Below are positions 33,241 through 53,017 of a stretch of DNA of 64,000 nucleotides, piece after piece. The notes beneath the pieces were generated by a model. The model saw only the letters and a list, made by a program, of their open reading frames with translations. It searched no databases and was not told the DNA's origin. Source of the stretch: Utricularia gibba (taxonomy: Eukaryota > Streptophyta > Magnoliopsida > Lamiales > Lentibulariaceae); NCBI GenBank assembly GCA_002189035.1, contig NEEC01000127.1, positions 1-64,000 of the forward strand, written 5' to 3'. The position numbers and the translations under genes are program-made. Each line of letters opens with the position of its first letter. The stretch's first letter is position 1.

Positions 33241-36200
33241 ATCTTTCGGCTTGCACAAACGAATCTGCGTTTTCGTTCGAGGTGATGTGAAATATGGGTT
33301 TTCGAGGCGATCTTTGCACATGCTTAGGGTGTGTCCCTACCGAAGCCTCATGGTTTCCTCGCACACCGTTCGGCATCTCGTCGATATCCTGAAGACCGTG
33401 ATGAGTCACGCTGCGCCCGGAATACCGTTTCGAAGCTCGTTCCGAGCCGGTCATCTTCCGTGTTGAAAGCTTCTTCGTCCGAGGATGCATAGAGCTCGAA
33501 TTATCGCCTTCTATTAGCCTTCAGATGTGCCACAAAGTGGCCACCACGTTCGCGACGATGCGACTTGGAACACCAAAATCGACGTGATTGTAATTTTCGG
33601 CTTGCAAAACATCTGCGTTTTTTCGGGTGATGTGAAATATGGGTTTTCGAGGCGATCTTTGCACATGCTTAGGGTGTGTCCCTACTCGAAGCCTCATGGT
33701 TTCCTCGCACACCGTTCGGCATCTCGTCGATATCCTGAAGACCGTGATGAGTCACGCTGCGCCCTTGCAAAACATCTGCGTTTTTTCGGGTGATGTGATA
33801 CGAGGCGATTTTGCACATGAAGCTCGTTCCGAGCCGGTCATCTTCCGTGTTTCCGAATCTTCCGCTTCTTCGTCCGAGGATGCATAAGAGCTCGAATTAT
33901 CGCCTTATATTAGCCTTCAGATGTGCCACAAAGTGGCCACCACGTTCGCGACGATGCGACTTGGAACACCAAAATCGACGTGATTGTAATTTTCGGCTTG
34001 CAAAACATCTGCGTTTTTTGGGTGATGTGAAATATGGGTTTTCGAGGCGATCTTTGCACATGCTTAGGGTGTGTCCCTACCGAAGCCTCATGGTTTCCTC
34101 GCACACCGTTCGGCATCTCGTCGATATCCTCGAAGACCGTGATGAGTCACGCTGCGCCCGACATACCTTTTCGTCGAAGCTCGTTCCGAAGCCGGTCATC
34201 TTCCGTGTTGAATAAAGCTTCTTCGTCCGAGGATGCATAGAGCTCGAATTATCGCCTTATATTAGCCTTCAGATGTGCCACAAAGTGGCCACCACGTTCG
34301 CGACGATGCGACTTGGAACACCAAAATCGACGTGATTGTGATTTTCGGCTTGCAAAACATCTGCGTTTTTTCGGGTGATGTGAAATATGGGTTTTCGAGG
34401 CGATCTTTGCACATGCTTAGGGTGTGTCCCTACCGAAGCCTCATGGTTTCCTCGCACACTTCGGCATCTCGTCGATATCCTGAAGACCGTGATGAGTCAC
34501 GCTGCGCCCGCATACCGTTTCGAAGCTCGTTCCGAGCCGGTCATCTTCCGTGTTTGAAAGCTTCTTCGTCCGAGGATGCATCAGAGCTCGAATTATCGCC
34601 TTCTATTAGCCTTCAGATGTGCCACAAAGTGGCCACCACGTTCGCGACGACGCGACTTGGAACACCAAAATCGACGTGATTGTAATTTTCGGCTTGCAAA
34701 ACATCTGCGTTTTTTCGGGTGATGTGAAATATGGGTTTTCGAGGCGATCTTTGCACATGCTTAGGGTGTGTCCCTACCCGAAGCCTCATGGTTTCCTCGC
34801 ACACCGTCGGCATCTCGTCGATATCCTGAAGACCGTGATGAGTCACGCTGCGCCCGGAATACCGTTTCGAAGCTCGTTCCGAGCCGTCATCTTCCGTGTT
34901 GAATGCTTCTTCGTCCGAGGATGCATAAGAGCTCGAATTATCGCCTTATATTAGCCTTCAGATGTGCCACAAAGTGGCCACCACGTTCGCGACGATGCGA
35001 CTTGGAACACCAAAATCGACGTGATTGTAATTTTCGGCTTGCAAAACATCTGCGTTTTTTCGGGTGATGTGAAATATGGGTTTTCGAGGCGATCTTTGCA
35101 CATGCTTAGGGTGTGTCCCTACGAAGCCTCATGGTTTCCTCGCACACCGTTCGGCATCTCGTCGATATCCTGAAGACCGTGATGAGTCACGCTGCGCCCG
35201 GAATACCGTTTCGAAGCTCGTTCCGAGCCGGTCATCTTCCGTGTTGAATGCTTCTTCGTCCGAGGATGCATAAGAGCTCGAATTATCGCCTTCTATTAGC
35301 CTTCAGATGTGCCACAAAGTGGCCACCACGTTCGCGACGATGCGACTTGGAACACCAAAATCGACGCGATTGTGATTTTCGGCTTGCAAAACATCTGCGT
35401 TTTTTCGGGTGATGTGAAATATGGGTTTTCGAGGCGATCTTTGCACATGCTTAGGGTGTGTCCCTACCCGAAGCCTCATGGTTTCCTCGCACACCGTTCG
35501 GCATCTCGTCGATATCCTGAAGACCGTGATGAGTCACGCTGCGCCCGGATCCGTAAGCCGTTTCATCTTCCGTGTTGAATGCTTCTTCGTCCGAGGATGC
35601 ATCAGAGCTCGAATTATCGCCTTATATTAGCCTTCAGATGTGCCACAAAGTGGCCACCACGTTCGCGACGATGCGACTTGGAAACCAAAATCGACGTGAT
35701 TGTAATTTTCGGCTTGCAAAACATCTGCGTTTTTTTGGGTGATGTGAAATATGGGTTTTCGAGGCGATCTTTGCACATGCTTAGGGTGTGTCCCTACGAA
35801 GCGACATTATCTCGCGATATCTTGATGAGTCACACCAAGCCGTTCCGAGCATCTTCCGTCACATCAGAGCTGAAGCCACCACGTTCGCGACGATGCGACT
35901 TGGAACACCAAAATCGACGCGATTGTGATTTTCGGCTTGCAAAATCTGCGTTTTTTCGGGTGATGTGAAATATGGGTTTTCGAGGCGATCTTTGCACATG
36001 CTTAGGGTGTGTCCCTACCCGAAGCCTCATGGTTTCCTCGCACACCGTTCGGCATCTCGTCGATATCCTGAAGACATCGTGATGAGTCACGCTGCGCCCG
36101 GAATACCGTTTCGAAGCTCGTTCCGAGCCGGTCATCTTCCGTGTTGAATGCTTCTTCGTCCGATGATGCTCAGAGCTCGAATTATCGCCTTCTATTAGCC

Positions 36201-37580
36201 TTCAGATGTGCCACAAAGTGGCCACCACGTTCGCGACGATTTTGATTGTAATTTTCGGCTTGCAAAACATCTGCGTTTTTTCGGGTGATGTGAAATATGG
36301 GTTTTCGAGGCGATCTTTGCACATGCTTAGGGTGTGTCCCTACCGAAGCCTCATGGTTTCCTCGCACACCGTTCGGCATCTCGTCGATATCCTGAAGACC
36401 GTGATGAGTCACGCTGCGCCCGGAATACCGTTTCGAAGCTCGTTCCGAGCCGGTCATCTTCCGTGTTGAATGCTTCTTCGTCCGAGGATGCATAAGAGCT
36501 CGAATTATCGCCTTCTATTAGCCTTCAGATGTGCCACAAAGTGGCCACCACGTTCGCGACGATGCGACTTGGAACACCAAAATCGACGCGATTGTATTTT
36601 CGGCTTGCAAAACATCTGCGTTTTTGGGTGATGTGAAATATGGGTTTTCGAGGCGATCTTTGCACATGCTTAGGGTGTGTCCCTACCGAAGCCTCATGGT
36701 TTCCTCGCACACCGTTCGGCATCTCGTCGATATCCTGAAGACCGTGATGAGTCACGCTGCGCCCGGAATACCGTTTCGAAGCTCGTTCCGAGCCGGTCAT
36801 CTTCCGTGTTGAAAGCTTCTTCGTCCGAGGATGCATCAGAGCTCGAATTATCGCCTTCTATTAGCCTTCAGATGTGCCACAAAGTGGCCACCACGTTCGC
36901 GACGTTTCGATGCGACTCATGGAACACCAAAATCGACGTGATTGTGCGAATTTTCGGCTTGCAAAACATCTGCGTTTTTTCGGGTGATGTGAAATATGGG
37001 TTTTCGAGGCGATCTTTGCACATGCTTAGGGTGTGTCCCTACCGAAGCCTCATGGTTTCCTCGCACACCGTTCGGCATCTCGTCGATATCCTGAAGACGT
37101 GATGAGTCACGCTGCGCCCGGAATACCGTTTCGAAGCTCGTTCCGAGCCGGTCATCTTCCGTGTTGAAGCTTCTTCGTCCGAGGATGCATAAGAGCTCGA
37201 ATTATCGCCTTATATTAGCCTTCAGATGCCACAAAGTGGCCACCACGTTCGCGACGACGCGACTTGGAACACCAAAATCGACGTGATTGTAATTTTCGGC
37301 TTGCAAAACATCTGCGTTTTTTCGGGTGATGTGAAATATGGGTTTTCGAGGCGATCTTTGCACATGCTTAGGGTGTGTCCCTACCGAAGCCTCATGGTTT
37401 CCTCGCACACCGTTCGGCATCTCGTCGATATCCTGAAGACCGTGATGAGTCACGCTGCGCCCGGAATACCGTTTCGAAGCTCGTTCCGAGCCGGTCATCT
37501 TCCGTGTTGAATGCTTCTTCGTCCGAGGATGCATCAGAGCTCGAATTATCGCCTTATATTAGCCTTCAGATGTGCCATGG
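33241..37580. repeat. Units with short rearranged or insertion-rich patches
   Basis: Otherwise normal units contain local damage. At 33,241-33,284 small insertions break up TTTTCGGCTTGC and the T tract. At 33,765-33,820 a partial second copy of the TTGCAAAACATCTG-to-TTGCACATG segment follows GCTGCGCCC. At 34,131-34,216 there are five or more small insertions. At 35,549-35,575 about 20 bp around the hairpin are lost. At 35,799-35,880 most of the second half of a unit is collapsed into about 80 bp. Near 36,240 about 25 bp are lost, at 36,904-36,955 there are insertions, and near 37,576 CAAAG is lost. Flanking units are near-consensus. True micro-rearrangement and poor local consensus cannot be told apart from sequence alone. 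Confidence 0.75.
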
Positions 37581-39880
37581 CCACCACGTTCGCGACGATG
37601 CGACTTGGAACACCAAAATCGACGTGATTGTAATTTTCGGCTTGCAAAACATCTGCGTTTTTTCGGGTGATGTGAAATATGGGTTTTCGAGGCGATCTTT
37701 GCACATGCTTAGGGTGTGTCCCTACCCGAAGCCTCATGGTTTCCTCGCACACCGTTCGGCATCTCGTCGATATCCTGAAGACCGTGATGAGTCACGCTGC
37801 GCCCGGATACCGTTTCGAAGCTCGTTCCGAGCCGGTCATCTTCCGTGTTTAAAGCTTCTTCGTCCGAGGATGCATCAGAGCTCGAATTATCGCCTTCTAT
37901 TAGCCTTCAGATGTGCCACAAAGTGGCCACCACGTTCGCGACGATGCGACTTGGAACACCAAAATCGACCGATTGTGATTTTCGGCTTGCAAAACATCTG
38001 CGTTTTTTCGGGTGATGTGAAATATGGGTTTTCGAGGCGATCTTTGCACATGCTTAGGGTGTGTCCCTACCGAAGCCTCATGGTTTCCTCGCACACCGTT
38101 CGGCATCTCGTCGATATCCTGAAGACCGTGATGAGTCACGCTGCGCCCGGAATACCGTTTCGAAGCTCGTTCCGAGCCGGTCATCTTCCGTGTTGAAGCT
38201 TCTTCGTCCGAGATGCATAAGAGCTCGAATTATCGCCTTATATTAGCCTTCAGATGTGCCACAAAGTGGCCACGTTCGCGACGATGCGACTTGGAACACC
38301 AAAATCGACGTGATTGTAATTTTCGGCTTGCAAAACATCTGCGTTTTTTCGGGTGATGTGAAATATGGGTTTTCGAGGCGATCTTTGCACATGCTTAGGG
38401 TGTGTCCCTACTCGAAGCCTCATGGTTTCCTCGCACACCGTTCGGCATCTCGTCGATATCCTGAAGACCGTGATGAGTCACGCTGCGCCCGATACCGTTT
38501 CGAAGCTCGTTCCGAGCCGGTCATCTTCCGTGTTGAAAGCTTCTTCGTCCGAGGATGCATCAGAGCTCGAATTATCGCCTTCTATTAGCCTTCAGATGTG
38601 CCACAAAGTGGCCACCACGTTCGCGACGATGCGACTTGGAACACCAAAATCGACGCGATTGTATTTTCGGCTTGCAAAACATCTGCGTTTTTTCGGGTGA
38701 TGTGAAATATGGGTTTTCGAGGCGATCTTTGCACATGCTTAGGGTGTGTCCCTACCGAAGCCTCATGGTTTCCTCGCACACCGTTCGGCATCTCGTCGAT
38801 ATCCTGAAGACCGTGATGAGTCACGCTGCGCCCGGAATACCGTTTCGAAGCTCGTTCCGAGCCGTCATCTTCCGTTTGAATGCTTCTTCGTCCGAGGATG
38901 CATCAGAGCTCGAATTATCGCCTTATATTAGCCTTCAGATGTGCCACAAAGTGGCCACCACGTTCGCGACGATGCGACTTGGAACACCAAAATCGACGTG
39001 ATTGTAATTTTCGCTTGCAAAACATCTGCGTTTTTTGGGTGATGTGAAATATGGGTTTTCGAGGCGATCTTTGCACATGCTTAGGGTGTGTCCCTACCCG
39101 AAGCCTCATGGTTTCCTCGCACACCGTTCGGCATCTCGTCGATATCCTGAAGACCGTGATGAGTCACGCTGCGCCCGGAATACCGTTTCGAAGCTCGTTC
39201 CGAGCCGGTCATCTTCCGTGTTGAAAGCTTCTTCGTCCGAGGATGCATCAGAGCTCGAATTATCGCCTTCTATTAGCCTTCAGATGTGCCACAAAGTGGC
39301 CACCACGTTCGCGACGATGCGACTTGAACACCAAATCGACGATTGTGATTTTCGGCTTGCAAAACATCTGCGTTTTTGGGTGATGTGAAATATGGGTTTT
39401 CGAGGCGATCTTTGCACATGCTTAGGGTGTGTCCTACCCGAAGCCTCATGGTTTCCTCGCACACCGTTCGGCATCTCGTCGATATCCTGAAGACCGTGAT
39501 GAGTCACGCTGCGCCCGGAATACCGTTTCGAAGCTCGTTCCGAGCCGTCATCTTCCGTGTTGAATGCTTCTTCGTCCGAGGATGCATCAGAGCTCGAATT
39601 ATCGCCTCCTTCAGATGTGCCACAAAGTGGCCACCACGTTCGCGACGATGCGACTTGGAACACAAAATCGACGTGATTGTAATTTTCGGCTTGCAAAACA
39701 TCTGCGTTTTTTCGGGTGATGTGAAATATGGGTTTTCGAGGCGATCTTTGCACATGCTTAGGGTGTGTCCCTACGAAGCCTCATGGTTTCCTCGCACACC
39801 GTTCGGCATCTCGTCGATATCCTGAAGACCGTGATGAGTCACGCTGCGCCCGGAATACCGTTTCGAAGCTCGTTCCGAGC

Positions 39881-39991
39881 ATCTCGTCATATCTCTGATA
39901 GACCGTGATTCTCACGCTGCGCGGCTTGCAAAACATCTGCGCATCACATGAAGAAGCTCATGGTTCCGAGCCGGTATCATCTTCCGTGCAA
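39881..39991. repeat. Scrambled unit segment
   Basis: After GCTCGTTCCGAGC the copy returns to CATCTCGTCATATC, repeats a damaged GACCGTGAT...CACGCTGCGC, then jumps to GGCTTGCAAAACATCTGCG before resuming at CATCTTCCGTG. Words from at least three parts of the unit are therefore joined out of order within about 110 bp. The neighbouring units 39,625 and 40,060 are ordinary block B copies. Confidence 0.7.
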
Positions 39992-41017
39992 AGCTTCTTC
40001 GTCCGAGGATGCATCAGAGCTCGAATTATCGCCTTATATTAGCCTTCAGATGTGCCACAAAGTGGCCACCACGTTCGCGACGACGCGACTTGGAACACCA
40101 AAATCGACGTGATTGTAATTTTCGGCTTGCAAAACATCTGCGTTTTTTCGGGTGATGTGAAATATGGGTTTTCGAGGCGATCTTTGCACATGCTTAGGGT
40201 GTGTCCCTACCGAAGCCTCATGGTTTCCTCGCACACCGTTCGGCATCTCGTCGATATCCTGAAGACCGTGATGAGTCACGCTGCGCCCGGAATACCGTTT
40301 CGAAGCTCGTTCCGAGCCGGTCATCTTCCGTGTTGAATGCTTCTTCGTCCGAGGATGCATAGAGCTCGAATTATCGCCTTCGCCTTCAGATGTGCCACAA
40401 AGTGGCCACCACGTTCGCGACGATGCGACTTGGAACACCAAATCGACGTGATTGTAGGCTTGCAAAACATCTGCGTTTTTTCGGGTGATGTGAAATATGG
40501 GTTTTCGAGGCGATCTTTGCACATGCTTAGGGTGTGTCCCTACCGAAGCCTCATGGTTTCCTCGCACACCGTTCGGCATCTCGTCGATATCCTGAAGACC
40601 GTGATGAGTCACGCTGCGCCCGGACCGTTTCGAAGCTCGTTCCGAGCCGGTCATCTTCCGTGTTTAAAGCTTCTTCGTCCGAGGATGCATCAGAGCTCGA
40701 ATTATCGCCTTCTATTAGCCTTCAGATGTGCCACAAAGTGGCCACCACGTTCGCGACGATGCGACTTGGAACACCAAATCGACGCGATTGTATTTTCGGC
40801 TTGCAAAACATCTGCGTTTTTTCGGGTGATGTGAAATATGGGTTTTCGAGGCGATCTTTGCACATGCTTAGGGTGTGTCCCTACCCGAAGCCTCATGGTT
40901 TCCTCGCACACCGTTCGGCATCTCGTCGATATCCTGAAGACCGTGATGAGTCACGCTGCGCCCGGAATACCGTTTCGAAGCTCGTTCCGAGCCGGTCATA
41001 TTCCGTGTTGAAAGCTT

Positions 41018-41133
41018 CTGCGACTTGGAACACCAAAATCGACGCGAGGATGCGATCAGAACGAATCATATTCGCCTTCGATATTATGATCAGAATGTGC
41101 CAAAAGCTTCTTCGTCCGCCACGCACGCGCGAC
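41018..41133. repeat. Scrambled unit segment
   Basis: The copy leaves the normal order after GAAAGCTTC and inserts TGCGACTTGGAACACC followed by CGACGCG. It continues through a diverged version of the unit end, which reads GAGGATGCGATCAGAACG and then CATATTCGCC with extra bases. It repeats AAGCTTCTTCGTCC and re-enters the normal order at CGACGATGCGACTTGG. All pieces derive from the satellite itself; no foreign sequence is needed to explain it. Confidence 0.7.
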
Positions 41134-42269
41134 GATGCGACTTGGAACACCAAAATCGACGTGATTGTAATTTTCGGCTTGCAAAACATCTGCGTTTTTT
41201 CGGGTGATGTGAAATATGGGTTTTCGAGGCGATCTTTGCACATGCTTAGGGTGTGTCCCTACCGAAGCCTCATGGTTTCCTCGCACACCGTTCGGCATCT
41301 CGTCGATATCCTGAAGACCGTGATGAGTCACGCTGCGCCCGGTTTCGAAGCTCGTTCCGAGCCGGTCATCTTCCGAAAGCTTCTTCGTCCGAGGATGCAT
41401 CAGAGCTCGAATTATCGCCTTATTAGCCTTCAGATGTGCCACAAAGTGGCCACCACGTTCGCGACGATGCGACTTGGAACACCAAAATCGACGATCGGCT
41501 TGCAAAACATCTGCGTTTTTTCGGGTGATGTGAAATATGGGTTTTCGAGGCGATCTTTGCACATGCTTAGGGTGTGTCCCTACCGAAGCCTCATGGTTTC
41601 CTCGCACACCGTTCGGCATCTCGTCGATATCCTGAAGACCGTGATGAGTCACGCTGCGCCCGGAATACCGTTTCGAAGCTCGTTCCGAGCCGGTCATCTT
41701 CCGTGTTGAATGCTTCTTCGTCCGAGGATGCATAAGAGCTCGAATTATCGCCTTATATTAGCCTTCAGATGTGCCACAAAGTGGCCACCACGTTCGCGAC
41801 GATGCGACTTGAACACCAAAATCGACGTGATTGTAATTTTCGGCTTGCAAAACATCTGCGTTTTTTCGGGTGATGTGAAATATGGGTTTTCGAGGCGATC
41901 TTTGCACATGCTTAGGGTGTGTCCCTACCGAAGCCTCATGGTTTCCTCGCACACCGTTCGGCATCTCGTCGATATCCTGAAGACCGTGATGAGTCACGCT
42001 GCGCCCGGATACCGTTTCGAAGCTCGTTCCGAGCCGGTCATCTTCCGTGTTGAAGCTTCTTCGTCCGAGGATGCATCAGAGCTCGAATTATCGCCTTCTA
42101 TTAGCCTTCAGATGTGCCACAAAGTGGCCACCACGTTCGCGACGATGCGACTTGGAACACCAAAATCGACGCGATTGTATTTTCGGCTTGCAAAACATCT
42201 GCGTTTTTTCGGGTGATGTGAAATATGGGTTTTCGAGGCGATCTTTGCACATGCTTAGGGTGTGTCCCT

Positions 42270-45200
42270 ACTCGCGTTTCATGGTGATGTCCGACATCGT
42301 TCCGGCATCTCGTCTTCTTCGAGGCATCCTCGAAGCACCGTGATTACGCTGCGTCGGCTATACCGTCATGAAGCATGGGTTCGGCATCTCGTCGATATCC
42401 TGAAGACCGTGATGAGTCACGCTGCGCCCGGAATACCGTTTCGCAATGCTTCTTCGTCCAGGATGCATCAGAGCTCGAATTATCGCCTTCTATTAGCCTT
42501 CAGATGCGCCACAAAGTGGCCACCACGTTCGCGACGATGCGACTTGGAACACCAAAATCGACTCGGCTTGCAAAACATCTGCGTTTTTTCGGGTGATGTG
42601 AAATATGGGTTTTCGAGGCGATCTTTGCACATGCTTAGGGTGTGTCCCTACCCGAAGCCTCATGGTTTCCTCGCACACCGATCTCGTCGATATCCTGAAG
42701 ACCGTGATGAGTCACGCTGCGCCCGGAATACCGTTTCGAAGCTCGTTCCGAGCCGTCATCTTCCGTGTTGAAGCTTCTTCGTCCGAGGATGCATAAGAGC
42801 TCGAATTATCGCCTTATATTAGCCTTCAGATGTGCCACAAAGTGGCCACCACGTTCGCACGACGCGACTTGGAACACCAAAATCGACGTGATTGTAATTT
42901 TCGGCTTGCAAAACATCTGCGTTTTTCGGGTGATGTGAAATATGGGTTTTCGAGGCGATCTTTGCACATGCTTAGGGTGTGTCCCTACTCGAAGCCTCAT
43001 GGTTTCCTCGCACAAATATCATCAGATGTTTTCACAAAGTGTGCCACTACGTTCGCGATTTTCGCGACGGCGATGGAATTGCACATGCTTAAAATCGACG
43101 CGTCCCTACCGAAGCCTCATGGTTTCCTCGCACACCGTTCGGCATCTCGTCGATATCCTGAAGACCGTGATGAGTCACGCTGCGCCCGGATTTTTCGTTT
43201 CGAAGCTGTGAAATCGAGCCGGGTTCCGTGTTGCGATCTTTTCTTAGGTCCGATACCGAAGCCTCATGGTTTCCTCGCACACCGTTCGGCATCTCGTCGA
43301 TATCCTGAAGACCGTGATGAGTCACGCTGCGCCCGGCATACCGTTAAGCTCTTCAGATGCCGAGCCGGTCCACCACGTTCGCGACGATGCGACTTGGAAC
43401 ACCAATCGACGTGATTGTAATTTTCGGCTTGCAAAACATCTGCGTTTTTTCGGGTGATGTGAAATATGGGTTTTCGAGGCGATCTTTGCACATGCTTAGG
43501 GTGTGTCCCTACATTATCGCCTTCATGGTTTCCTCGTTCAGATGTGCCACATAAGTCGGCCATATCCTGAAGACCGTCGCGACGATGCGACTTGGAACAC
43601 CAAAATCGACGATTGTGATTTTCGGCTTGCAAAACATCTGCGTTTTTCCGGGTGATGTGAAATATGGGTTTCTCGTTCCGAGCCGATCATTTGCACATGA
43701 AAGCTTCTTCGTCCAGGGGATGCATCCGAGCTCCTCAATGGTTTCGCTTCGCACACCGTTCGGCATCTCAGATGTGCCACCGAAATCCTGGACCGTGATG
43801 AGTCACGCTGCGCCCGGATACCGTTTCGAAGCTCGTTCCGAGCCGGTCATCTTCCGTGTTGAAAGCTTCTTCGTCCGAGGATGCATCAGAGCTCGAATTA
43901 TCGCCTTCGTGAGCCTTCAGATGCGCCACAAAGTTTCGGCTTGCAAAACATCTGCGTTTTTTTCGTGATGCGACGAATATGGGACTTTTCGACACATCAA
44001 TTGCACATGTGATTTTCGGCTTGCGTCCCTACCATCTGCGTTTTTTTGGGCTCGCAAATATGGGTTTTCGAGGCGATCTTTGCACATGCTTAGGGTGTGT
44101 CATCCTCGTCGATATCCTGAAGACCGTGATGAGTCACGCTGCGCCATACCGTTTCGAAGCTCGTTCCGAGCCGTCATCTTCCGTGTTGAAAGCATCTCGT
44201 TCGATATCCTGAAGACCGTGATGCTCGACGCGCTGCGCCCGGAATATGTGCCACAAATTGGCTCGTTCCGAGCCGTTCATCTTCCGTGACTTGAATGCTT
44301 CTTCGTCCGAGGATGCATCAAGAATCGCTCGATGATTATGCGATTTTCGGCTTGCAAAACATCTGCGTTTTTTGGGTGATGTGAAATATGGGTTTTCGAG
44401 GCGATCTTTGCACATGCTTAGGTGTGTGCCTCCCTACAAGTGGCCACACACGTTCGCTCGACATGTTCGACATCTCGAACGATATCCTGGCGACGCGATT
44501 GATGATCGGCTTGCAAAACATCTGCGTTTTTGCGGGCCATGGAAATATGGGTTTCTCGAGCGATCTTCCGAGCCGGTCATCTTCCGTGTTGAAAGCTTCT
44601 TCGTCGGATGCATCAGAGCTCGAATTATCGCCTTATATTAGCCTTCAGATGTGCCACAAAGTGGCCACCACGTTCGCGACGATGCGACTTGGAACACAAA
44701 ATCGACGTGATTGTATTTTCGGCTTGCAAAACATCTGCGTTTTTCGGGTGATGTGAAATATGGGTTTTCGAGGCGATCTTTGCACATGCTTAGGGTGTGT
44801 CCTACCCGAAGCCTCATGGTTTCCTCGCACACCGTTCGGCATCTCGTCGATATCCTGAAGACCGTGATGAGTCACGCTGCGCCCGGAACCGTAAGCTCGT
44901 TTCGTGTTGAAGCTCGTCCGAGGATGCATCAGAGCTCGGTCAGATGTGCTTCGCGACGATGCGACTTGAACAGACTTCTTCGTCTGCGTTTTCGCCTTCG
45001 AGTGATGTGAATGCATATCGACGGTTTTCGAGCGCGATGCGACTTTGCACATGCTTAGGGTGTGTCCCTACCGAAGCCTCATGGTTTCCTCGCACACCGT
45101 TCGGCATCTCGTCGATATCCTGAAGACCGTGATGAGTCACGCTGCGCCCGGAATACCGTTTCGAAGCTCGTTCCGAGCCGGTCATCTTCCGTGTTGAAAG

Positions 45201-48200
45201 CTTCTTCGTCCGAGGATGCATCAGAGCTCGAATTATCGCCTTCTATTAGCCTTCAGATGTGCCACAAAGTGGCCACCACGTTCGCGACGATGCGACTTGG
45301 AACACCAAAATCGACGCGATTGTATTTTCGGCTTGCAAAACATCTGCGTTTTTTCGGGTGATGTGAAATATGGGTTTTCGAGGCGATCTTTGCACATGCT
45401 TAGGGTGTGTCCTACCGAAGCCTCATGGTTTCCTCGCACACCGTTCGGCATCTCGTCGATATCCTGAAGACCGTGATGAGTCACGCTGCGCCCGGAATAC
45501 CGTTTCGAAGCTCGTTCCGAGCCGGTCATCTTCCGTGTTGAAAGCTTCTTCGTCCGAGGATGCATCAGCTCGAATTATCGCCTTCTATTAGCCTTCAGAT
45601 GCTGGCCACCACGTTCGCGACGATGCGACTTGGAACACCAAATCGACGCGATTGTGATTTTCGGCTTGCAAAACATCTGCGTTTTTGGGTGATGTGAAAT
45701 ATGGGTTTTCGAGGCGATCTTTGCACATGCTTAGGTGTTCCTACCCGAAGCCTCATGGTTTCCTCGCACACCGTTCGGCATCTCGTCGATATCCTGAAGA
45801 CCGTGATGAGTCACGCTGCGCCCGGAACATCGACCGGTTTCGAAAGCTCTTCGTTCCGAGCCGGTTCATTCTTCCGTGTTGAAAGCTCGTTCTTCGTCTT
45901 CGGATGCATCAGAGCTCGAATTATCGCCTTCCTAATGTAAGCCGTTCCGAGATGCGCCGACATCAGAGTCGAGCCACCTTACGTTTCGCGACGATGCGAC
46001 TTTAACACCAGAAATTCGACATCTGCGATTGTAATTTTGCGGGCTTCGCACAAACATCTGCGTTTTTGGGTGATGTGAAATATGGGTTTTCGAGGCGATC
46101 TTTGCACATGCTTAGGGTGTGTCCCTACCGAAGCCTCATGGTTTCCTCGCACACCGTTCGGCATCTCGTCGATATCCTGAAGACCGTGATGAGTCACGCT
46201 GCGCCCGGAATAGCCGTTCTCCGTGTTTAAGCTTCTTCGTCCGAGGATGCATCAGAGCTCGAATTATCGCCTTCATCCTTCGCGTGTTGAAGCTTGCTCT
46301 CGTCCGAGGATGCATAAGAGCCTCGAATTATCGCATCTCGTGATATCCTGAGCCTTTCAGATACCGTGAAGCTCGTTCCGAGCATCAAGCTCGGCCAGAG
46401 CCACGTTCGCGACGATGCGACTTGGAACACCAAAATCGACGTGATTGTAATCTTTCGGCTCTGCACAAACCTGATCATGCGTTTTCGTCGGAGTGATGTC
46501 CGAATATAAGCTCGGAGCCTTCTTCCGAGGCGATCATTTGCACATGCGTTAGTGTTGTCGAGGCGATCCCATACCGAAGCCTCATGGTTTCCTCGCACAC
46601 CGTTCGGCATCTCGTCGATATCCTGAAGACCGTGATGAGTCACGCTGCGCCCGGAATACCGTTTCGAAGCTCGTTCCGAGCCGTCATCTTCCGTGTTGAA
46701 TGCTTCTTCGTCCGAGGATGCATCAAGCTTAGCCTCCGAATTATCGCCTCGTGATATTAAGCCGTGATCAGATGTGCTCACAAAGTTCTTCGTCCGCCAG
46801 CTCGACGTTCGCGACCGTTTCGATGCGACTTGGAACACCAAAATCGACGTGATTGTAATTTTCGGCTTGCAAAACATCTGCGTTTTTTCGGGTGATGTGA
46901 AATATGGGTTTTCGAGGCGATCTTTGCACATGCTTAGGTGTGTCCCTAAGCCGACAGCCATCGCGATGGACTTTCACGCTCGCAATACACTCGTTCGGCA
47001 TCTTCGTCGATCATCCTCGAAGATCCGTGATGAGTTCACGCTGCGCCCGGAATACCGTTTCGAAGCTCGTTCCGAGCCGGTCATCTTCCGTGTTTCCGAA
47101 AAAGCTTCTTCGTCCGAGGATGCATCAGAGCTCGAATTATCGCCTTTATTAGCCTTCAGCGCTTCGCGAGATGTGCACACGAAAGTGTGCTTCAGGCATC
47201 ACGTTATCGCGACGATGCGACTTGGAACACCAAAATCGACGCGATGTGTAATTTTCGGCTTGCACAAACATCTGCGTTTTTTTCGGGTGATGTGAAATAT
47301 GGGTTTTCGAGGCGATCTTTGCACATGCTTAGGGTGTGTCCCTACCGAAGCCTCATGGTTTCCTCGCACACCGTTCGGCATCTCGTCGATATCCTGAAGA
47401 CCGTGATGAGTCACGCTGCGCCCGGATACCGTTTCGAAGCTCGTTCCGAGCCGGTCATCTTCCGTGTTGAAAGCTTCTTCGTCCGAGATGCATCAGAGCT
47501 CGAATTATCGCCTTATATTAGCCTTCAGATGTGCCACAAAGTGGCCACCACGTTCGCGACGATGCGACTTGGAACACCAAATCGACGTTGTAATTTTCGG
47601 CTTGCAAAACATCTGCGTTTTTTCGGGTGATGTGAAATATGGGTTTTCGAGGCGATCTTTGCACATGCTTAGGGTGTGTCCCTACCGAAGCCTCATGGTT
47701 TCCTCGCACACCGTTCGGCATCTCGTCGATATCCTGAAGACCGTGATGAGTCACGCTGCGCCCGGATACCGTTTCGAAGCTCGTTCCGAGCCGGTCATCT
47801 TCCGTGTTGAAAGCTTCTTCGTCCGAGGATGCATCAGAGCTCGAATTATCGCCTTATTAGCCTTCAGATGTGCCACAAAGTGGCCACCACGTTCGCGACG
47901 ATGCGACTTGAACACCAGAATCGACGTGATGTGTGATCTTTCGGCTCTCGTCAAAACCTGATGAGTCACGCTGCGCCCGGATACCGTTTCGAAGCTCGTT
48001 CCGAGCCGGTCATCTTCCGTGTTGAAATTCTTCGTCCGAGATGCATCAGAGCTCGAATTATCGCCTTCTATTAGCCTTCAGATGTTTCGCGACGATGCGA
48101 CTTGGAACACCAAAATCGACGCGATTGTGATTTTCGGCTTGCAAAACATCTGCGTTTTTCGGGTGATGTGAAATATGGGTTTTCGAGGCGATCTTTGCAC

Positions 48201-50830
48201 ATGCTTAGGGTGTGTCCCTACCCGAAGCCTCATGGTTTCCTCGCACACCGTTCGGCATCTCGTCGATATCCTGAAGACCGTGATGAGTCACGCTGCGCCC
48301 GGAATACCGTTTCGAAGCTCGTTCCGAGTCATCTTCCGTGTTGAAAGCTTCTTCGTCCGAGGATGCATCAGAGCTCGAATTATCGCCTTCTATTAGCCTT
48401 CAGATGTGCCACAAAGTGGCCACCACGTTCGCGACGATGCGACTTGAACACCAAAATCGACGCGATTGTGATTTTCGGCTTGCAAAACATCTGTTTTTCG
48501 GTGATGTGAAATATGGGTTTTCGAGGCGATCTTTGCACATGCTTAGGGTGTGTCCCTACCGAAGCCTCATGGTTTCCTCGCACACCGTTCGGCATCGGCA
48601 TCTCGTCGATATCCTGAAGACCGTGATGAGTCACGCTGCGCCGGGAATACCGTTTCGAAGCTCGTTCCGAGCCGGTCATCTTCCGTGTTGAACGCTTCTT
48701 CGTCCGAGGATGCATCAGAGCTCGAATTATCGCCTTATATTAGCCTTCAGATGTGCCACAAAGTGGCCACCACGTTCGCGACGATGCGACTTGAACACCA
48801 AAATCGACGCGATTGTGATTTTCGGCTTGCAAAACATCTGCGTTTTTTCGGGTGATGTGAAATATGGGTTTTCGAGGCGATCTTTGCACATGCTTAGGGT
48901 GTGTCCCTACCGAAGCCTCATGGTTTCCTCGCACACCGTTCGGCATCTCGTCGATATCCTGAAGACCGTGATGAGTCACGCTGCGCCCGGAATACCGTTT
49001 GGAAGCTCGTTCCGAGCCGGTCATCTTCCGTGTTTAAAGCTTCTTCGTCCGAGGATGCATCAGAGCTCGAATTATCGCCTTCTATTAGCCTTCAGATGTG
49101 CCACAAAGTGGCCACCACGTTCGCGACGATGCGACTTGGAACACCAAAATCGACGCGATTGTATTTTCGGCTTGCAAAACATCTGCGTTTTTTCGGGTGA
49201 TGTGAAATATGGGTTTTCGAGGCGATCTTTGCACATGCTTAGGGTGTGTCCTACCGAAGCCTCATGGTTTCCTCGCACACCGTTCGGCATCTCGTCGATA
49301 TCCTGAAGACCGTGATGAGTCACGCTGCGCCCGGAATACCGTTTCGAAGCTCGTTCCGAGCCGTCATCTTCCGTGTTGAAAGCTTCTTCGTCCGAGGATG
49401 CATCAGAGCTCGAATTATCGCCTTATTAGCCTTCAGATGTGCCACAAAGTGGCCACCACGTTCGCGACGATGCGACTTGGAACACCAAATCGACGTTGTA
49501 ATTTTCGGCTTGCAAAACATCTGCGTTTTTTCGGGTGATGTGAAATATGGGTTTTCGAGGCGATCTTTGCACATGCTTAGGGTGTGTCCCTACCGAAGCC
49601 TCATGGTTTCCTCGCACACCGTTCGGCATCTCGTCGATATCCTGAAGACCGTGATGAGTCACGCTGCGCCCGGAATACCGTTTCGAAGCTCGTTCCGAGC
49701 CGGTCATCTTCCGTGTTGAATGCTTCTTCGTCCGAGATGCATGAGCATCAGAGATGTGCTCGAATCTATCGCCTTCTACATTAAATCATGCCGATTCAGC
49801 TTATGCGCCTCACAAATCTCGTCGATATATCCTGAAGACCGTGATGAGTCACGCTGCGCCCGGACCGTTCCGTGTTTAAAGCTTCTTCGTCCGGATGCAT
49901 CAGAGCTCGAATTATCGCCTTCTATGCGTTTTTTCGGCGACTTGAACACCAGATACCGTGAAGCTCGTTCCGAGCATCAAGCTCGACGATGCGACTTGGA
50001 ACACCAAAATCGACGTGATTGTAATTTTCGGCTTGCAAAACATCTGCGTTTTTTCGGGTGATGTGAAATATGGGTTTTCGAGGCGATCTTTGCACATGCT
50101 TAGGGTGTGTCCCTACCGAAGCCTCATGGTTTCCTCGCACACCGTTCGGCATCTCGTCGATATCCTGAAGACCGTGATGAGTCACGCTGCGCCCGCATAC
50201 CGTTTCGAAGCTCGTTCCGAGCCGTCATCTTCCGTGTTTAATGTCCGAGGATGCATAGAGCTCGAATTATCGCCTTCTATTAGCCTTCAGATGTGCGGGC
50301 GACTGATGCGTTTTTTCGGTGATGACTCGAAGCCTCATGGTTTCCTCGCAATCTCGTCGATGGGCCCGGAATACCGTTTCGAAGCTCGTTCCGAGCCGGT
50401 CATCTCGTGTTTAATGCTTCTTCGTCCGAGAATTATCGCCTTCAGATGGCCACCACGTTCTTTGCACATGCTTCTTCCGTGTTGAAAGCTTCTTCGTCCG
50501 AGGGTGTGTCGACTTGCACCGAAGCCATCTCGTCGATATCCTGAAGACCGTCATGGAGCCGTTTCGCCTTATATTAGCTGTGCCACAAAGTGGCCACCAC
50601 GTTCGCGACGATGCGACTTGGAACACCAAAATCGACGTGATTGTAATTTTCGGCTTGCAAAACATCTGCGTTTTTCGGGTGATGTGAAATATGGGTTTTC
50701 GGCGTCGATCTCGTTCTTCGTCCGAGGATGCATAAGAGCTCGAATTATCGATATGCGACTTGGAACACCAAAATCCTGAAGTTTTTTCGGTGATGTGAAA
50801 TATGGGTTTTCGACTTTGCGTGATGAGTCA
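42270..50830. repeat. Scrambled satellite domain, about 8.5 kb
   Basis: About half of this stretch is satellite sequence with broken order, small insertions and partial copies, interleaved with near-consensus units. Main disrupted patches: 42,270-42,448; 43,012-43,375; 43,512-43,590; 43,672-43,800; 43,910-44,110; 44,190-44,340; 44,420-44,580; 44,884-45,055; 45,828-46,065; 46,208-46,575; 46,725-46,825; 46,940-47,275; 47,925-48,090; 49,730-49,990; 50,235-50,830. Clear unit starts between them are 44659, 45267, 47539, 47878, 48414, 48761, 49106, 49447 and 50588. Many patches look like the consensus with extra single bases or CG/TCG/CT insertions (for example 45,828-45,930 and 47,000-47,045). Others join distant parts of the unit. 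The least satellite-like piece is about 45 bp near 46,948-46,992. No TE termini, target-site duplication or gene was seen. Confidence 0.75.
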
Positions 50831-50955
50831 CGCTGCGCCCGGAATACCGTTTCGAAGCTCGTTCCGAGCCGTCATCTTCCGTGTTGAAAGCTTCTTCGTC
50901 CAGGATGCATCAGAGCTCGAATTATCGCCTTCTATTAGCCTTCAGATGCGCCACA

Positions 50956-53017
50956 AAGTGGCCACCACGTTCGCGACGATGCGACTTGAACACCAAATCG
51001 ACACGATTGTGATTTTCGGCTTGCAAAACATCTGCGTTTTTTGGGTGATGTGAAATATGGGTTTTCGAGGCGATCTTTGCACATGCTTAGGGTGTGTCCC
51101 TACCCGAAGCCTCATGGTTTCCTCGCACACCGTCGGCATCTCGTCGATATCCTGAAGACCGTGATGAGTCACGCTGCGCCCGCATACCGTTTCGAAGCTC
51201 GTTCCGAGCCGGTCATCTTCCGTGTTGAATGCTTCTTCGTCCGAGAATGCATCAGAGCTCGAATTATCGCCTTATATTAGCCTTCAGATGTGCCACAAAG
51301 TGGCCACCACGTTCGCGACGATGCGACTTGGAACACCAAAATCGACGTGATTGTAATTTTCGGCTTGCAAAACATCTGCGTTTTTTCGGTGATGTGAAAT
51401 ATGGGTTTTCGAGGCGATCTTTGCACATGCTTAGGGTGTGTCCCTACCGAAGCCTCATGGTTTCCTCGCACACCGTTCGGCATCTCGTCGATATCCTGAA
51501 GACCGTGATGAGTCACGCTGCGCCCGGAATACCGTTTCGAAGCTCGTTCCGAGCCGGTCATCTTCCGTGTTGAAAGCTTCTTCGTCCGAGATGCATCAGA
51601 GCTCGAATTATCGCCTTATATTAGCCTTCAGATGTGCCACAAAGTGGCCACCACGTTCGCGACGATGCGACTTGGAACACAGAATCGACGCGATTGTATT
51701 TTCGGCTTGCAAAACATCTGCGTTTTTTTGGGTGATGTGAAATATGGTTTTCGAGGCGATCTTTGCACATGCTTAGGGTGTGTCCCTACCGAAGCCTCAT
51801 GGTTTCCTCGCACACCGTTCGGCATCTCGTCGATATCCTGAAGACCGTGATGAGTCACGCTGCGCCCGGATACCGTTTCGAAGCTCGTTCCGAGCCGGTC
51901 ATCTTCCGTGTTGAAAGCTTCTTCGTCCGGATGCATCAGAGCTCGAATTATCGCCTTCTATTAGCCTTCAGATGCGCCACAAAGTGGCCACCACGTTCGC
52001 GACGATGCGACTTGTAACACCAGAATCGACGCGATTGTGATTTTCGGCTTGCAAAACATCTGCGTTTTTTGGGTGATGTGAAATATGGGTTTTCGAGGCG
52101 ATCTTGCACATGCTTAGGGTGTTTCCTACCCGAAGCCTCATGGTTTCCTCGCACACCGTTCGGCATCTCGTCGATATCCTGAAGACCGTGATGAGTCACG
52201 CTGCGCCCGGAATACCGTTTCGAAGCTCGTTCCGAGCCGGTCATCTTCCGTGTTGAATGCTTCTTCGTCCGAGGATGCATCAGAGCTCGAATTATCGCCT
52301 TATATTAGCCTTCAGATGTGCCACAAAGTGGCCACCACGTTCGCGACGATGCGACTTGGAACACCAAAATCGACGCGATTGTAATTTTCGGCTTGCAAAA
52401 CATCTGCGTTTTTTGGGTGATGTGAAATATGGGTTTTCGAGGCGATCTTTGCACATGCTTAGGGTGTGTCCCTACCCGAAGCCTCATGGTTTCCTCGCAC
52501 ACCGGCATCTCGTCGATATCCTGAAGACCGTGATGAGTCACGCTGCGCCCGGAATACCGTTTCGAAGCTCGTTCCGAGCCAGTCATCTTCCGTGTTGAAT
52601 GCTTCTTCGTCCGAGGATGCATAAGAGCTCGAATTATCGCCTTATATTAGCCTTCAGATGTGCCACAAAGTGGCCACCACGTTCGCGACGATGCGACTTG
52701 GAACACCAAAATCGACGTGATTGTAATTTTCGGCTTGCAAAACATCTGCGTTTTTTCGGGTGATGTGAAATATGGGTTTTCGAGGCGATCTTTGCACATG
52801 CTTAGGGTGTGTCCCTACTCGAAGCCTCATGGTTTCCTCGCACACCGTTCGGCATCTCGTCGATATCCTGAAGACCGTGATGAGTCACGCTGCGCCCGGC
52901 ATACCGTTTCGAAGCTCGCGTTCCGAGCCGGTCATCTTCCGTGTTGAAAGCTTCTTCGTCCGAGGATGCATCAGAGCTCGAATTATCGCCTTCTATTAGC
53001 CTTTCAGATGCGCCACA
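50956..53017. repeat. Mosaic transition from block B to block C
   Basis: Unit starts are 50956, 51298, 51642, 51982, 52326 and 52668. Units 50956 and 51982 carry A/C-type GCGCCAC, and the latter also GTAACACCAGAATCG, which is otherwise typical of block C. Units 51298, 51642, 52326 and 52668 carry GTGCCAC and GGAACAC of block B. Unlike the single-step change at 17,733, this border alternates subfamilies over about 2 kb. Exchange between neighbouring subfamilies, not one crossover, would produce that (inference). Confidence 0.7.

Follow-up and report, generated by a model that had tools for sequence, protein, structure and literature searches.

Between roughly 42 and 51 kb of the 64,000-nucleotide stretch of Utricularia gibba DNA analyzed here (the window), an otherwise orderly satellite array is broken by patches in which parts of the repeat unit follow one another out of order. 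The question posed by this locus is whether the plant itself carries the jumbled sequence, as it would if the array had been broken and repaired many times or had decayed in place, or whether the disorder arose during genome assembly. The anatomy of the sequence leads us to conclude that the feature is most likely not real, but an assembly error. Specifically, we estimate a probability of roughly 87% that the patches are a low-depth consensus artefact, generated from long reads aligned out of register and absent from the DNA of the plant.

The window corresponds to positions 1-64,000 of contig C163, in an assembly totaling 100.09 Mb in 516 contigs, and comprises a single tandem array of a 344-346-bp unit, of which 184 copies were identified by Tandem Repeats Finder. 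Sequences were decoded against the unit consensus using a model in which bases may be substituted, short indels may occur, and the path may jump to any position of the unit. By this approach the array runs on past the window to the end of the contig at 93,520, and all of C163 decodes as the same unit. Long head-to-tail arrays of near-identical units, the arrangement that characterizes satellite DNA, occupy the window and the whole of both C163 and contig C178. Subfamily blocks were read in C163, including the window, and in C178, C191, C200, C221, and C508, and they fall into two types: subfamily A carries C at unit position 207 and often G at 255, and subfamily B carries T at 264 and A at 271. 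Some of the borders between blocks are sharp, as at ~17.7 kb of the window. Both the satellite and its division into subfamily blocks look genuine. A query of a plasmid collection with one satellite unit returned no match. In the clean units, homopolymer deletions of 1 bp predominate (177 of 224), homopolymers making up 43% of unit positions; these deletions are compatible with weakly polished CLR sequence, and some of the sites may be true variants.

Elsewhere in the genome, words from three subfamilies occur 718, 2262, and 1955 times as exact or near-exact matches. Among the matches listed (starting with C163, C32, and C107), none lies in C1-C4, the first-listed chromosome-size contigs (8.5, 6.2, 5.3, and 3.8 Mb). 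Two large contigs, C451 (6.82 Mb) and C244 (3.41 Mb), start with telomere repeats and end in the satellite superfamily, and C508 (456 kb) and C480 (739 kb) start with satellite and end in telomere-like repeats. This layout is consistent with a satellite located at centromeres, pericentromeres, or knobs, where the assembly breaks the chromosome arms. Putative centromeres devoid of satellites have been reported for this species (PMC8333044), from which the chromosomes that are broken in the assembly may differ. At the edge of the C508 array (within the segment 40,001-48,000), diverged satellite units continue for about 1.9 kb (1-1930 of that segment) and give way to unique sequence near 41.9 kb. 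The unique sequence beyond this edge includes an E/P/V-rich repeated open frame and what we take to be a possible DOMON/AIR12-like gene. Several contigs have lengths that are multiples of 2,500 (C1, 8,500,000; C2, 6,192,500; C409, 2,492,500; C505, 3,452,500; C512, 17,500; C514, 27,500; C515, 267,500), and these look like contigs with cut ends; the right ends of C1 and C2 are free of telomere repeats. The mitochondrial cox1 of the assembly, read from its translation, is plant-like and continues into an intron reading frame that carries LAGLIDADG-like motifs.

Clustering of decoded events revealed 30 disrupted patches in the window, of which 23 reside within 42.27-50.83 kb; the other seven, which are weaker, fall upstream of this interval, between 33.2 and 41.1 kb (Table 1). 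A first-pass annotation of this DNA had reported about fifteen patches in the downstream interval; their presence is confirmed at a level far from chance by both jump density and insertion rate, although their number was underestimated. Three 3-kb bins spanning 42,001-51,000 contain 109 jumps; among the remaining bins of C163, three are exceptions and the rest hold 0-3 each. Insertions occur at 21.5 per kb in 42,270-50,830 versus 1.8 per kb in 1-33,000, and the share of insertions that are of the homopolymer type is 30% in the former and 92% in the latter. As the same annotation had proposed, the patches consist almost entirely of satellite words, and the decoded jumps between unit positions bear out its description of joins between distant parts of the unit. 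Exact consensus 9-mers in the forward orientation cover 58% of patch bases, as against 2% in a Markov-shuffled control, whereas reverse-strand 9-mers cover 2%, which is the background level, and reverse-strand 12-mers 0%; the patches thus contain no inverted satellite words. Palindromes derived from missed adapters were considered and ruled out by this lack of reverse-strand words. One 34-bp scrambled word that contains several joins has exactly two copies in the assembly, separated by 3.6 kb. Either one read was used at both sites or identical registers were fused on two occasions.

Table 1. Features of the satellite array and its disrupted patches, in window coordinates
Feature	Position	Strand	Basis
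Satellite array, 344-346-bp unit, head to tail, one orientation	1-64,000	+	Tandem Repeats Finder; decoding of whole contig
Seven weaker scrambled patches upstream of main domain	33,243-41,123	+	Event clustering
Weaker patches, individual coordinates	33,243-33,280; 33,764-33,864; 34,131-34,213; 35,808-35,875	+	Event clustering
Weaker patches, remaining coordinates	36,907-36,947; 39,879-39,976; 41,019-41,123	+	Event clustering
Main scrambled domain, 23 patches among near-consensus units, read as probable consensus artefact	42,272-50,819	+	Decoding, insertion rates, jump bins, event clustering
Patches with clearest alternation of two parallel registers, near-constant offset	43,014-44,565	+	Segment list; permutation test over C163
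Insertion-only noise patch (13 insertions, 0 deletions, 3 mismatches)	45,828-45,930	+	Single-register fit
34-bp scrambled word, first of two identical copies	46,360-46,393	+	Whole-genome pattern search, 2 matches
Insertion-only noise patch (32 insertions, 0 deletions, 4 mismatches)	46,430-46,575	+	Single-register fit
Insertion-only noise patch (5 insertions, 0 deletions, 0 mismatches)	47,000-47,045	+	Single-register fit
34-bp scrambled word, second copy	49,952-49,985	+	Whole-genome pattern search, 2 matches

The order in which satellite words are joined is far from random. At 43.0-44.6 kb, where the regularity is strong (it is weaker elsewhere), the sequence switches every 5-35 bp between two parallel unit registers. 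Consecutive jumps at 43,191-43,253 measure -149, +148, -151, +149, -158, and +156; those at 43,513-43,577 measure +160, -163, +159, -160, and +152; and those at 44,008-44,056 measure -77, +72, -76, +75, and -73. The residuals left by such pairs are small and mostly negative, indicating that the foreign word stands in for the greater part of the host word and adds some bases on balance. Across C163, the first register is regained within 12 bases in 45 of 112 jump pairs (mean 9.5 and maximum 23 in 5000 permutations), and a second excursion following such a return revisits the same second register in 19 of 31 cases (permuted mean 4.1, maximum 12). Return alone could be an effect of local noise on the decoder; this explanation does not extend to the way in which one and the same second register is visited again, in unit-matching words of 8-18 bp. 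The fixed-register alternation expected of an out-of-register consensus is therefore evident in C163, and it is weaker in C178 (7 returns of 29) and in C508 (9 of 54, only slightly over its null).

A second type of disorder is found in the three patches in which the first-pass annotation had observed insertion-biased noise. When fitted to a single register, they hold 50 insertions and 0 deletions in 295 bases, an observation that strengthens the earlier description and corresponds to the signature of a low-depth consensus, in which insertions are kept and deletions are repaired.

Both types of disorder were reproduced by a toy partial-order consensus, our own program rather than that of the assembler, run at CLR-like error rates of our choosing. 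With two groups of noisy reads at a fixed offset, it generated return fractions of 0.46-0.83, same-second-register fractions of 0.54-0.91, and excess insertions; the corresponding fractions observed in C163 are 0.40 and 0.61. When two or three noisy reads were in step, its heaviest-path rule yielded 111-123 insertions and about 5 deletions per kb. Random template switching, when simulated, gave only 0.07 and 0.15 for the two fractions. A low-depth consensus is favored because the toy program yields both the alternation and the insertion-only noise, whereas random switching does not. A word from the simulated consensus was also sought by pattern search and gave no match, as expected.

These results suggest how the patches could have formed. 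A few noisy reads may have been piled up partly out of step within a nearly uniform 344-bp array, such that the consensus program would thread one path through an alignment graph holding two or more unit registers. The path would change register wherever the registers have a few bases in common, and extra bases would be retained. The expected outcome is alternation between two registers, together with noise made of insertions alone at places where these few reads agree in register. Subsequent polishing was probably unable to mend the patches, as reads within the array would lack a unique placement. We infer that reads at the patches were few and out of step, and likewise that the error arose at one of three stages, namely read pre-assembly, contig consensus, or polishing. 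The U. gibba genome was assembled by HGAP from PacBio reads at 88x coverage with a mean subread length of 10.4 kb (PMC5793159), and the source of this contig is probably that HGAP assembly of PacBio CLR data. The genome is described as about 100 Mb, with 18 contigs >1 Mb, four of which are putatively entire chromosomes, and with a length of 6.8 Mb for Unitig_8 (PMC8333044).

The distribution of the patches also counts in favor of an artefact, as some contigs carry them and 57.6 kb of this satellite in other contigs is almost free of them. Comparable patches are found at 89.4 kb of C163, in C178 (11-23, 41, and 54-60 kb), and in C508 (25-36 kb), and hardly at all in C191, C200, and C221. The satellite of the latter three contigs contains 4 jumps in its 57.6 kb, compared with 138 jumps in 20-40 kb of C508. 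Parts of C508 exhibit runs of small in-register skips, which may represent a variant of this consensus failure dominated by deletions. The skips count against the artefact reading, as do the double occurrence of the 34-bp word and the weaker two-register regularity outside 43.0-44.6 kb. A search for a second assembled copy of the patch region, using rare shared 31-mers, found none among the contigs examined.

Noisy long-read assemblies make consensus errors in tandem repeats. The patches resemble such errors in their near-uniform array, insertion bias, restriction to repeat words, and unique junctions, and differ in the regular alternation of two fixed registers, which would be an unusually clear form of this failure. 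A literature search for this exact two-register form found no paper.

Foremost among the alternatives, and itself improbable, is that the contig incorporates one raw long read that was never polished, or a gap filler, with its sequencing errors left visible. The insertion-rich single-base noise of several patches and the abrupt return to clean units are both in keeping with such an event. However, a simulated single read carries 67-73 insertions and 30-36 deletions per kb, and the three noise patches have no deletions; they fit an in-step consensus of two or three reads rather than a single read. Moreover, a raw read should not alternate between two registers, and the noise is discontinuous, confined to patches of roughly 20-150 bp. 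The artefact proposed in the first-pass annotation is therefore upheld as a low-depth, out-of-register consensus, given the alternation and the insertions, and fits less well as a single unpolished read, given the missing deletions.

A somewhat slimmer chance attaches to the proposal, also made in that annotation, that repeated breakage and template-switching repair of real DNA joined distant unit parts. Genuine satellite words are indeed joined at distant unit positions, and the main domain spans a change from subfamily B to subfamily A, as does the domain in C178. However, other subfamily borders are clean, and the position could also be accounted for if unlike arrays had been wrongly joined. 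Comparison of the permutation results with the random-switch simulation indicates that successive joins do not draw on independent donor positions but return to the same two registers. Inverted words, which are frequent though not obligatory in such rearrangements, are absent from the joins, and insertion-only noise is not expected of repair. Nor are scrambled junctions common to different contigs, with the exception of small skips. The patches thus resemble FoSTeS/MMBIR-like rearrangements in that short templated words are joined at distant positions, but differ from them in their in-step alternation at a constant offset, their insertion-only noise, and their lack of inverted words. Because the same two registers are revisited and inverted words are missing, breakage and repair fits poorly. 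We regard as more doubtful again the idea that the patches are real and mark a zone where the two subfamilies meet, with repair alternating at 5-35-bp intervals between two templates whose out-of-register offset stays fixed. Should the patches prove genuine, they would point to a previously unknown kind of template switching.

Least probable of all is an old, unhomogenized satellite segment that decayed in place, an earlier suggestion that suits the position at a subfamily border, where less homogenized units could survive, but that fits poorly because such a segment should show substitutions with unit order kept, as does the true old array edge of C508 (45-47 mismatches per kb at 38-40 kb, then a rise to 61-83 per 500 bp, with few jumps), and the patches do not. 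Like the diverged monomers at array edges, the patches depart from the array consensus; unlike them, they keep words that match the current consensus exactly, parted by abrupt jumps, and lose their order.

If the patches are a consensus artefact, as we favor, they serve mainly as a warning that jumbled satellite in older long-read assemblies can mimic dramatic rearrangement. Two features would flag such sequence without recourse to reads: joins that alternate between two fixed registers, and insertions unaccompanied by deletions.
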